From: Ectothiorhodospira shaposhnikovii | Lineage (GTDB): Bacteria; Pseudomonadota; Gammaproteobacteria; Ectothiorhodospirales; Ectothiorhodospiraceae | Direction of reading: 5' to 3' | Assembly (NCBI RefSeq): GCF_022227765.1 | Contig: NZ_JAJMLZ010000003.1 | Coordinates: forward strand, 124,001 to 188,000 | DNA length: 64,000 nt | Shown: positions 13,693 to 17,935 of the stretch, one piece after another | Numbering within the stretch: position 1 is the stretch's first letter | How the letters are laid out: the number at the start of each line of letters is the position of its first letter | The notes under the pieces: model-generated | Database searches by the model: none | What the model was told of the DNA's origin: nothing | What the model saw: the letters and a program-made list of their open reading frames with translations, nothing else | Made by a program: the position numbers and the translations under genes

Positions 13693-15864
13693 CTAGAAAT
13701 CCACGTTCATGGAAACCCACAGCCTGCGAGGCTCCAGCAGCTGGTTGTAGACGTTGCTGTAAGCCGTGGTGCTCGGATCGTTGCGCAAGGGATAGGCGCG
13801 ATAATCGTTGAAGTCCTTGTCCAGCAGGTTGTAGACCACGCCGGTGACGGAGACATGGCGGTTGAACCGATAGGTGGCACCCAGGTCGACCAGGGTATAA
13901 CCCTTGAAATCCCCCAGAGCTTCGGCGGCACCCTGCGCATCGCCTCCAAGATGGGGTTCATGGAAGCTGTCCGGGCGGAATCGGCTGCTGCGGTATTCCA
14001 CACCCAGGAAGGTACTCAGGGCAGGGCTGGTCTGCCATGAGAGGCGGGTATTGATCATGTGTTCCGGGATGCTGTACAGGGGGTCGCCTTTCTGAAAGCC
14101 CCTGACGATGGAGGAGGTGACTTCGCTATCGGTATAGGTGTAGTTGGCGGCCACCTGCCAGTCGGGCGCGAACTGCCAGCGACCGTTGAGTTCCACACCC
14201 CGAATCCGTGCTTCACCGATGTTGCTGGGCTCATCGGGCATGCCCGATGCCCCGGTGGGACGCTCGATCTTGTCTTCGATATTGGTATAGAACAGGGTGG
14301 CCTGCAGGTTCAGACCGGCCCGGTTATCAAACAGGGCAGCGACTTCGTAGTTGGTGCTGATCTCGGGATCGAGATTCGGGTTTCCGAACAGCGCGGTTTC
14401 GCCGTTGTTGCCATAGCCGATGATGCCGTCGTGCAGCTGTTCCAGGTAGGGGGCGCGGTAACCGCGTCCCACGCCACCCTTGAAGGTCCAGGTGGGGGAG
14501 GCGTTCCAGACACCGTAAAGGCGAGGCGTGACCTGTCCGCCAAAGGCATCGTGATTGTCGTAGCGCAGGCCGCCGGTCAGGGCGAACTGTTCGGTCATGG
14601 CCCACTCGTCTTCAACAAAGACACCCCACTGCCGGTTTTTGAAGGTGCTCTGAGGGATGCCGTCCTCCATGCGCGCATCAATGTACTGGGCACCCAATGA
14701 GAGGGTGTGGTCACCGACGAAGGTGATGAGCTTGGTATCCAGAATGGTCGTTTCACTTTCCAGCTTGCGGTCTGCGCCCACGACCAGCCCGGGCGAAGCC
14801 GAACCCACGGCATTTTCAGGAATGGTCCTGCCCGTGGTTTCGGTGCGGTTGTAGGTGAGGGCGGATTCCAGGATACCGATCTCGTAACGTCCGGTATGGG
14901 CCAGATAGACCTGGTCTCGCTCGAATCCCAACTCCTTGTCATAACCATCCCGGAAAGCGCCGGCATTGTTCTGGCGGATGCGCCCCAGCTGGCCGCGGTC
15001 ATTGTTGTAGGTCTGACGGGTGATATCGACCCCCAGGGAGATGTCATTGTCCACGTTGGGGGTCAGGGTCAGGCGTCCACCGAAGGTTTCCACATTGGCG
15101 CCGGCGGGGTTTTGTCCCATGGTCCGGTTGTCCACCAAGCTTTCGTTCTGCCCAGGCCAGGTGATCCGCGATTCGGCGCGCTCGTACAGTCGGCCATACA
15201 CCTGCAGCGAGAGCCGGTCTTCCACCAGGGGGCCGGCGGCATAGGCTTCCAGGGTGGTGTTGCCGCCGAATTCCGCATCGCGCTGGAAAGTGCTGCTCAG
15301 GGAGGCTGAACCGCCCCAGTGCTCGCCGGGCTTGCGGGTGATGATGTTGACCACGCCGCCCAGGGCATCGGCACCATAGAGGGTGGACATGGGGCCGCGG
15401 ATGACCTCGATGCGTTCGATGGCGGCCACCGGGGGGAAGAAGACTGAGGCGGAGTCCACGAAGGCATTGGGGGCCACGGTGCCGGGGACATTCTGGCGGC
15501 GTCCGTCGATCAGAACCAGGGTGTACTCGCTGGGCAGTCCGCGCAGGCTGATGGTTCGGTTGCCCGTCTTGTTGCTGCGTGCATCCAGGCCGTTGATATC
15601 CACGCCTTCGATGCCCCGTAGGGCGTCTGCGATGTTGGTGATCTGTTTCTGTTCCAGCTCTTCACGGGTGACAACCGTGATGCTGGCCGGTGCATTGACG
15701 ATTTCCTGCTGGAAGCCACCGGCCGTCACTACCATGGCCGGCATCTCCACGGCCTGTTGGGCCAGGGCTGCGGGCGAGGCCAGGGCAAATGAAACCCCGG
15801 CGGTCAGTGCGGTCAATCTGAGTCGATTCGGCATGTCGCCGGACGTGCGGCATGTCTTGGGCAC
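13693..15864 (-). CDS. TonB-dependent outer-membrane siderophore receptor (FepA/IrgA/CirA type)
   Basis: A 723-residue outer-membrane receptor that imports a ferric siderophore using TonB energy. It has a signal peptide (LALASPAALAQQ-like end), a TonB-box-like MPAMVVTAG, a plug domain (SLRGLPSEYTLVLIDGRR; IEVIRGPMSTLYGADALGG) and a 22-strand type barrel ending in an aromatic residue (WVSMNVDF). The GTG at 15864 has AAGGGG upstream; an ATG at 15834 would start right at the signal peptide, and either is possible. A Fur-like site lies 120 bases upstream. The ligand cannot be named from sequence; a catecholate siderophore would fit the closest relatives. Confidence 0.88.
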   Translation of the reverse strand: MPKTCRTSGDMPNRLRLTALTAGVSFALASPAALAQQAVEMPAMVVTAGGFQQEIVNAPASITVVTREELEQKQITNIADALRGIEGVDINGLDARSNKTGNRTISLRGLPSEYTLVLIDGRRQNVPGTVAPNAFVDSASVFFPPVAAIERIEVIRGPMSTLYGADALGGVVNIITRKPGEHWGGSASLSSTFQRDAEFGGNTTLEAYAAGPLVEDRLSLQVYGRLYERAESRITWPGQNESLVDNRTMGQNPAGANVETFGGRLTLTPNVDNDISLGVDITRQTYNNDRGQLGRIRQNNAGAFRDGYDKELGFERDQVYLAHTGRYEIGILESALTYNRTETTGRTIPENAVGSASPGLVVGADRKLESETTILDTKLITFVGDHTLSLGAQYIDARMEDGIPQSTFKNRQWGVFVEDEWAMTEQFALTGGLRYDNHDAFGGQVTPRLYGVWNASPTWTFKGGVGRGYRAPYLEQLHDGIIGYGNNGETALFGNPNLDPEISTNYEVAALFDNRAGLNLQATLFYTNIEDKIERPTGASGMPDEPSNIGEARIRGVELNGRWQFAPDWQVAANYTYTDSEVTSSIVRGFQKGDPLYSIPEHMINTRLSWQTSPALSTFLGVEYRSSRFRPDSFHEPHLGGDAQGAAEALGDFKGYTLVDLGATYRFNRHVSVTGVVYNLLDKDFNDYRAYPLRNDPSTTAYSNVYNQLLEPRRLWVSMNVDF

Positions 15865-15986
15865 GGATGTATCCCCTTGCGTGAGGTCAAAAGTGACGCT
15901 GGCTGGCTAGGCCCTCAGGGGGATTGGCTGGCTTGCGGGCTGGGTTGTGGAACGAGAGATCAGGATTTCGATCTCCATCAAAAATT

Positions 15987-16012
15987 CACGATTATTCTCA
16001 TTCTCATTCATT
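15987..16012 (-). promoter_or_regulatory. Fur-box-like operator upstream of the TonB receptor
   Basis: On the minus strand the sequence reads GAATGAGAATGAGAATAATC, the repeated GAATGA/GAATAA hexamer pattern of gammaproteobacterial Fur sites. It lies in an A+T-rich stretch about 125-150 bases before the receptor start. It supports iron-responsive repression together with the hemP operator. Confidence 0.65.
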
Positions 16013-16080
16013 TTTTTGGGATCTGTCAAACCTGGATCCGGCCATGGCGACGGTCTGGTCTGGAACGGTGTTGGCCGGGC

Positions 16081-16168: not shown

Positions 16169-16465
16169 TTACTTGCCGGGGCGCTGGTAGGTGCGCTCCA
16201 TGCGCTCGATCATCTCGCGCAGGCGGGCATTTTCCTGCAGGGCGCGGTCAGCCTTGCGGTTGGCTTCGTTGGCGGTGCGATTGGCCTGGTCGGCGCCGGC
16301 CTTGGCGTCGTTGGCGGTACGCAGGGCCTGGTCACTGGTGACCTTGGCGTTGTCGATCAACTGGCGGTTTTCTTCCAGGTTCTTGGTCGTGGCACAGCCC
16401 GTGGTCAACACCAGCGTCAGGACCGCTGCTGAAGCCATGGCCACTTTGAACATTCCTTTCTGCAT
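16169..16465 (-). CDS. lpp: Lpp/OprI-like outer-membrane lipoprotein
   Basis: A 98-residue major lipoprotein homologue. The signal peptide ends in the lipobox LTTGC. The mature chain is a heptad-rich helix (NDAKAGADQANRTANEANRK) expected to form a trimeric coiled coil with an alanine zipper. The final residue is Lys, as needed for covalent attachment to peptidoglycan in Lpp, although the last motif RPGK differs from the enteric YRK. GGAGG stands upstream of the ATG and a strong terminator follows, as expected for a highly expressed single gene. Confidence 0.85.
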   Translation of the reverse strand: MQKGMFKVAMASAAVLTLVLTTGCATTKNLEENRQLIDNAKVTSDQALRTANDAKAGADQANRTANEANRKADRALQENARLREMIERMERTYQRPGK

Positions 16466-16695
16466 TGGAACCTCCGGTTTAAGCTGGGTTGTAGGATTGG
16501 GAATTGAATTCTAACAGGTGGCTTTAAGTATCCATAGTATCCCCCCGAAAGATATTTAATCGGTCACAAAAATACCCGTTCAAAACGCATCCGGTCGTTG
16601 CACCATGTTGGGGCGGATTTTATCGTCTTGCCTGAAAAAAGTGCATTGCATTCAATGTGTTGTCATGGAACTCACCTCTGTGTCGGCATTTTTTC

Positions 16696-16711
16696 TGGCA
16701 TGCTTCATGCA
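16696..16711 (+). promoter_or_regulatory. Candidate sigma-54 promoter
   Basis: TGGCATGCTTCATGCA matches the sigma-54 consensus TGGCACGN4TTGCW at all but two defined positions, with the GG and GC doublets 12 bases apart as required. Start of transcription would be near 16722. A palindromic CATTG-N4-CAATG about 50-60 bases upstream could be an enhancer-binding site. Confidence 0.55.
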
Positions 16712-16721
16712 TTTCATTACG

Positions 16722-16803
16722 TGTCTGACATCCGGTCCTCTTGATCATGTCGGTCATCGTTTACTCCTCCTGCTTGCGGGGTGCTTCGGCACCCCGTTTT
16801 TTT
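16722..16803 (+). ncRNA. Candidate small RNA of about 80 nucleotides
   Basis: Between lpp (minus strand) and nagZ there is a plus-strand intrinsic terminator with no coding gene before it, and a near-consensus sigma-54 promoter at the right distance. The predicted transcript has a GACAT...ATGTC stem, a single-stranded pyrimidine-rich TTTACTCCTCCTGC that is complementary to ribosome-binding sites, and a terminal hairpin with seven T. These are the parts of an Hfq-type regulatory RNA. No reading frame of note lies within. It could instead be a leader for nagZ that ends early. Confidence 0.45.
16777..16803 (+). terminator. Intrinsic terminator upstream of nagZ
   Basis: CGGGGTG, loop CTTCGG, then CACCCCG followed by seven T. 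It cannot serve lpp, which is transcribed the other way, so it implies a plus-strand transcript in this intergenic region. Confidence 0.9.
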
Positions 16804-16888: not shown

Positions 16889-17935
16889 ATGCCCCTTGGG
16901 CCTGTGATGGTGGATCTGGAAGGCACGTCGATGACGGCCTGGGAACGGCAGTTATTGAAGCGTCCCGGGGTCGGGGGCGTGATCCTGTTTACCCGCAATT
17001 TCGAATCCCGTGAACAGCTCATGGCCCTGGTGGCCGAGATCCATGCCCTGCGGGACCCCCATCTGCTGGTGGCGGTGGACCACGAGGGAGGCCGGGTGCA
17101 ACGTTTCCGCGAAGGATTCACCCATTTGCCGGCCATGGCCGCCCTGGGTGCCCTGCATGATCGTGACCGGGCGGCCGCCCGTCGTGCGGCCCGGACCTTG
17201 GGTTGGCTGCTGGCGGTGGAGCTGCGCGCCGTGGGGGTGGATTTCAGCTTTGCCCCGGTGCTGGATCTGGCCCACGGCTGCAGCGGTGTGATCGGTGACC
17301 GGGCCTTTCATCGTCGCCCCGAGGTGGTGGGAGAACTGGGGCATCAGGTCGTGGCCGGCATGCGGGCAGCCGGCATGGAAGCCGTGGGCAAGCACTTTCC
17401 GGGGCATGGCGGGGTGCAGGCGGATTCTCACCTGGCCCTGCCGGTGGATCACCGGCCGTTCGATCGGATCCTGCACGATGATCTCCAGCCTTTTGACCGG
17501 CTGGTGCGTGAGGGTATCGCCGGCATCATGCCCGCCCATGTGGTGTATGACCAAGTGGATGATTTGCCCGCCGGTTTTTCCCCCCTCTGGCTGCAGCGCG
17601 TGCTGCGCGGACGTCTGGGTTTCAAGGGGGCCATCTTCAGTGATGATCTGAGCATGGCCGCCACCGAGAGTTTCGGCGATTTCCCCCGCCGTGCCCGCCT
17701 GGCCCTTGAGGCCGGTTGTGACATGGTACTGGTCTGCAATCACCCGGAAGGCGCCTCGCAGGTGCTGGATGCCCTGGAGGGGCATGCGGACCCGGTGTCC
17801 ATGGCCCGCCTGGCCCGCATGCATGGGCGCCGTGCCCCATCCTGGGCCGGCCTGGAAGCCGACCCGGAATGGGCCGCGGCGGTGCGCATCGCACGGGCGC
17901 TGGATGATGACATGAATCTGGAACTGCCGGTCTGA
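16889..17935 (+). CDS. nagZ: NagZ, beta-N-acetylhexosaminidase
   Basis: A 348-residue family 3 glycosidase of the cytoplasm that removes GlcNAc from anhydro-muropeptides in peptidoglycan recycling. Conserved pieces are DHEGGRVQRF, KHFPGHGGVQADSH (the His/Asp dyad of NagZ) and FSDDLSM with the nucleophilic Asp. ATG 16889 has GGGAGAG eight bases upstream; a longer in-frame upstream extension lacks family similarity. A TACAAT -10 lies about 35 bases before the start. In Pseudomonas, nagZ also neighbours methylthioinosine phosphorylase. Confidence 0.94.
   Translation: MPLGPVMVDLEGTSMTAWERQLLKRPGVGGVILFTRNFESREQLMALVAEIHALRDPHLLVAVDHEGGRVQRFREGFTHLPAMAALGALHDRDRAAARRAARTLGWLLAVELRAVGVDFSFAPVLDLAHGCSGVIGDRAFHRRPEVVGELGHQVVAGMRAAGMEAVGKHFPGHGGVQADSHLALPVDHRPFDRILHDDLQPFDRLVREGIAGIMPAHVVYDQVDDLPAGFSPLWLQRVLRGRLGFKGAIFSDDLSMAATESFGDFPRRARLALEAGCDMVLVCNHPEGASQVLDALEGHADPVSMARLARMHGRRAPSWAGLEADPEWAAAVRIARALDDDMNLELPV

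Follow-up and report, generated by a model that had tools for sequence, protein, structure and literature searches.

Few small RNAs (sRNAs) driven by sigma-54 and NtrC are known. In Sinorhizobium meliloti, MmgR (alpha-r8) is an Hfq-dependent RNA of ~77 nt with an anti-Shine-Dalgarno (anti-SD) motif. It is induced by NtrC under nitrogen limitation and is listed with both RpoD and RpoN promoters (PMC7143759). The same species has NfeR1 (alpha-r14), a nitrogen-responsive RNA with anti-SD motifs (PMC10746234, PMC7143759), which is transcribed from a sigma-70 promoter, repressed by NtrC, bears its motifs in three loops and targets ntrB (PMC10746234). In Pseudomonas aeruginosa, NrsZ depends on NtrB/C and RpoN for its transcription when nitrogen is limiting; this 226-nt RNA is processed, lies downstream of ntrC and activates rhlA (PMC8395346). 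GlnZ of Enterobacteriaceae is an sRNA of the NtrC/RpoN regulon (PMC9731577). Here we analysed a 64-kb stretch of the Ectothiorhodospira shaposhnikovii genome (the window), in which the gap between an lpp-like gene and nagZ likely holds a free-standing gene for an NtrC/sigma-54-induced, trans-acting anti-SD sRNA. The predicted RNA resembles MmgR in size, anti-SD motif and NtrC link, although MmgR is alphaproteobacterial and the window RNA gammaproteobacterial. It would share NtrC/RpoN control with NrsZ, but differs from it in size, locus and sequence: it is ~82 nt long, and its locus between lpp and nagZ is on contig C22, with ntrC on contig C12. GlnZ is released from the glnA 3'UTR, whereas the window RNA has its own putative promoter.

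The gap is flanked by a divergent lpp-like lipoprotein gene (16169–16465, minus strand, from the list of open reading frames), which neighbours the sRNA in most family members, and by nagZ (16889–17935, plus strand), a 348-aa open reading frame in frame. The predicted sRNA occupies 16722–16803 on the plus strand, its start being set from the promoter, ~12 nt past the sigma-54 element. It opens with a 5' hairpin of seven pairs (16722–16756, plus strand) and closes with an intrinsic terminator (16776–16803, plus strand) composed of a nine-pair stem (16776–16797), a UUCG loop and a run of seven T. Between the two hairpins, the minimum-energy fold leaves single-stranded an 11-nt, pyrimidine-rich stretch, ACTCCTCCTGC (16763–16773, plus strand; ACUCCUCCUGC in RNA form), which is the probable seed. 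The fold of the RNA with a few flanking bases has a z-score of −5.4, and none of 200 shuffles was equally stable. In addition, the U7 tail would suit Hfq binding. The preliminary description held that the terminator serves no neighbouring gene, and the stem with its T7 run bears this out: since lpp and nagZ are divergent, neither can use it.

The sigma-54 −24/−12 promoter, TGGCATGCTTCATGCA at 16696–16711 (plus strand), agrees on direct reading with 10 of the 12 specified positions of the consensus TGGCACG-N4-TTGCW and has the correct GG-N10-GC spacing, as had been proposed for this site. Taken alone, the pattern occurs in the window at chance level (3 matches against 2.53 expected), which is what would be seen if a sigma-54-like string merely happened to lie beside an ordinary terminator. 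The promoter rises above chance because the whole arrangement, and not the string alone, is conserved. All eleven family copies first examined carry a −24/−12 element 67–75 nt before the ACTCCTCCTGC stretch, and relatives have promoter variants, such as TGGCACGCCGGTTGCT, that come closer to the consensus than the window copy. The covariance model R1 was built from the RNA alone, leaving the promoter out, so that the promoter provides an independent check on its matches. R1 found the RNA in 13 of 47 family genomes with E-values of 1e-8 to 1e-16 (the window copy, which is part of the model, scores 95.7 bits), and 12 of these 13 copies have the element at an equal distance, ~26 nt upstream. Matches elsewhere in the class are weaker; 15 of the 19 outside the family, in other gammaproteobacterial families, have the element against a background of 1% per site, most of them at the same distance. 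The spacing between promoter and model start is nearly always 18–29 nt. Binomial figures for this co-occurrence ignore shared ancestry and are rough. With rpoN present in the genome, the sRNA gene is probably a sigma-54-dependent transcription unit with a conserved element at a fixed distance, and its expression is predicted to depend on rpoN.

A DNA search of relatives found that the block 16748–16803 recurs in other family members, with Thioalkalivibrio and Acidihalobacter among the named matches. The comparison of promoter and terminator among relatives, suggested as a check in the preliminary description, showed the pair to be kept across Ectothiorhodospira, Thioalkalivibrio, Acidihalobacter and further gammaproteobacterial families. 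A second, broader covariance model, R2, was trained on 30 matches; at E-values up to 0.001 it had matches in 37 of the 369 class genomes. Outside its training set, 9 of 31 R2 matches have a sigma-54 element (background 1.6%): for the class set the figure is 8 of 14, for the phylum set 1 of 17. Chance probably explains most matches at phylum level, and betaproteobacterial pattern matches (L051, L057, L061, L063 and L064) were set aside as they look like coincidences within coding sequence. In about ten more gammaproteobacterial families there are similar-looking RNAs that have a sigma-54 promoter of their own. The co-occurrence found with R1 and R2 indicates that RNA and promoter travel together in Gammaproteobacteria. 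The joint conservation, across genera and families, of upstream enhancer, promoter, covarying hairpin, seed and terminator refutes a chance arrangement, to which we assign a negligible probability.

The predicted structure is supported by covariation. In the 11-sequence alignment A1, a plain MAFFT alignment, 98.7% of cells in the 5' helix are paired and double changes occur at three of the seven pairs. In A2 (30 sequences), which leans towards the structure because it was fitted to the model, the corresponding figures are 95.6% and seven of seven. Counting all 16 pairs of the structure, 13 change on both sides in the 30-sequence alignment, the terminator stem included, and none of 500 shuffles reached as high a value. 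Shifting the pairing partners by one base destroys this signal. The ACTCCTCCTGC stretch, on the other hand, is unchanged in all 11 aligned family members. This invariance, with its unpaired state in the fold, upholds the suggestion that the stretch is exposed and able to face ribosome-binding sites. Alternatively, a small minus-strand protein gene might begin in the conserved block, with GCAGGAGGAGT as ribosome-binding site and an ATG a few bases on; in most copies an ATG does follow GCAGGAGGAG at a good spacing. However, the resulting reading frames run to ~10–61 codons, are dissimilar after the third residue and have no common stop, and the start codon is lost in L007/L023 (ACG). Moreover, the conserved pairs covary as RNA, and the T-run and the sigma-54 element both indicate the plus strand. 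We therefore reject the minus-strand protein, whose short reading frames are unrelated to one another, as highly improbable.

Upstream of the promoter lies an element that the preliminary description missed and that we add to it: a putative NtrC-type enhancer (UAS), TGCACCATGTTGGGGCG at 16599–16615 (plus strand), centred ~115 bp before the predicted start. TGCACC-N5-GGNGC occurs just once in the 64-kb window, as TGCACCATGTTGGGGC at 16599, but since 0.6 occurrences are expected there, it is weak evidence by itself. The window copy matches 10 of the 12 positions of the NtrC palindrome (TGCACC-N5-GGTGCA type). A UAS matching 10–11 of 12 positions stands ~95–128 bp before the model start in 10 of the 13 family copies, and for none of these did more than 2 of 300 shuffles do equally well. 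Palindromes with no more than one mismatch are several-fold commoner in these genomes than a reversed control. Because perfect or near-perfect copies also precede ntrB, gltB and nifL there (gene names assigned by reading translations), the palindrome can be identified as an NtrC site. The genome encodes NtrC (752 bits), and with an enhancer inside the expected range of roughly 100–150 bp upstream of the start, the sRNA gene has the layout of an NtrC regulon member.

The activator could instead be another NtrC-like enhancer-binding protein acting on the same sigma-54-dependent sRNA, in response to a signal other than nitrogen. TIGR01818 matches ~27 NtrC-like proteins per genome, and the window copy has an imperfect UAS. 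Several outside families have a weak NtrC motif upstream of their homologues, or none, and therefore another activator may act there. Against this alternative, the family UAS fits the palindrome found before ntrB, gltB and nifL in the same genomes and sits at the typical NtrC distance. We consider it unlikely for the window gene, for which a sigma-54/NtrC switch is well supported by the predicted sites. Nitrogen limitation would be the likely signal because the enhancer is of the NtrC type. The distribution of the RNA speaks against the main reading of an NtrC/sigma-54-induced sRNA: just 13 of 47 family genomes carry it, though all 47 encode NtrC-like proteins (in 42 of the genomes above the NtrC cut-off). 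One clear family copy, L026 (G013), is remote from nagZ and no longer has either the sigma-54 element or the UAS; its control may therefore have switched. Separately, two loci (L098 and L103) have perfect or near-perfect NtrC-type sites ahead of a nifL-like gene, which suggests NtrC control of nifLA in this family.

Since nagZ starts 85 bp past the sRNA on the same strand, the RNA might be a leader or attenuator of nagZ and not an independent transcript. nagZ closely follows the sRNA in Ectothiorhodospira, Thioalkalivibrio, an Acidihalobacter-family genome and two further families, and this gene order is common to four gammaproteobacterial families. However, the RNA is ~1 kb to many kb from nagZ in G005, G006, G012 and G013, and an Acidihalobacter-family copy (L030) and many others occupy unrelated loci. 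In addition, nagZ persists where the module has been deleted. In four genomes of sister species (G001, G003, G008 and G009), the promoter and the RNA are gone while lpp and nagZ are retained; the upstream part is gone as well in G001, G003 and G008, and a remnant of it is left in G009. The nagZ leader is contradicted by the unlinked copies and appears most improbable. The loss of promoter and RNA as a block instead fits a self-contained module, as expected of a free-standing sRNA gene. Comparison of genomes thus supports the putative promoter, the two-hairpin structure, the invariant seed, the enhancer motif and inheritance and loss as a unit. Given the distant or unlinked copies and the other loci in other families, adjacency to nagZ is old but loose. 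A functional tie to wall recycling, hinted at in the preliminary description, is unsupported, as nagZ is 1–3 kb away or unlinked in some species and offers no conserved pairing target.

How would such an sRNA act? We infer from these sequences that, under nitrogen limitation, phosphorylated NtrC would bind the enhancer at 16599–16615 and activate sigma-54 RNA polymerase at 16696–16711. Transcription would produce an RNA of ~82 nt ending at its own terminator. The 5' hairpin and the terminator hairpin would keep ACUCCUCCUGC single-stranded, so that it could pair with the purine-rich Shine-Dalgarno sequences in target mRNAs, thereby blocking translation. Hfq probably takes part, at the U-rich tail. 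The invariant, unpaired seed is what suggests the anti-SD action, with repression as its presumed outcome. Pairing-target prediction, another proposed check, was run on candidate mRNAs: complementarity is strong in some species, but acs, phasin, nagZ, ntrB and nifL have no conserved pairing. For acs, pairing is strong in E. haloalkaliphila and its relatives, but equally strong where the sRNA is absent and at background in the window species. For nagZ, it is strong only in the window species, two close relatives and the Acidihalobacter-family locus L029. For phasin, ntrB and nifL, pairing is at or near background with no conserved pattern. The RNA thus differs from MmgR in that phasin is no conserved predicted target, and from NfeR1 in that its pairing with ntrB is at background level.

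A search of the window and 17 homologous loci against Rfam 15 gave no family at gathering score. The best sub-threshold match by bits was full length, to RF00519 (suhB; MmgR/alpha-r8); it scored 23.2 bits, far short of the gathering score of 41, and for homologues of the RNA the match to RF00519 did not rise above chance. The RNA was rejected as a member of RF00519, SorX or SorY, all being below threshold. It may work like MmgR without being one, as the homologues do not convincingly repeat the RF00519 match. No description of this RNA was found in the open-access literature. This RNA, absent from Rfam, is found in purple sulphur bacteria, soda-lake sulphur bacteria and the acidophilic Acidihalobacter. 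As a parallel to MmgR, it would offer a concrete, testable arm of the nitrogen response in organisms whose post-transcriptional control is little studied. More speculatively, the RNAs might form one ancient gammaproteobacterial family of sigma-54-driven anti-SD sRNAs, often beside nagZ, that is the counterpart of rhizobial MmgR and serves the nitrogen response as a non-coding arm, lowering translation across the many mRNAs whose purine-rich ribosome-binding sites are strong, the lineage seeds ACUCCUCCUGC, ACCCUCCCUC and CACCUCCCC retuning its targets. This wider proposal is tentative, and on balance we lean against it.

Several further RNAs were seen in the searches. In another gammaproteobacterial family, related RNAs have a seed of the CCCTCCCTC type and sigma-54 promoters of their own (L032, L036, and L045 and L047 of genome G224); in G224 two RNA copies stand in tandem, ~175 bp apart. 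Sigma-54-linked RNAs at L147, L148 and, in family f22, at L145, L146 and L151 expose a C-rich stretch both in a hairpin loop and in the spacer, and are somewhat like the multi-motif alpha-r14 RNAs. Elsewhere in the window, GATTATTCTCATTCTCATT at 15985–16015 resembles a Fur box and lies upstream of a TonB-dependent receptor gene (13693–15864, minus strand).
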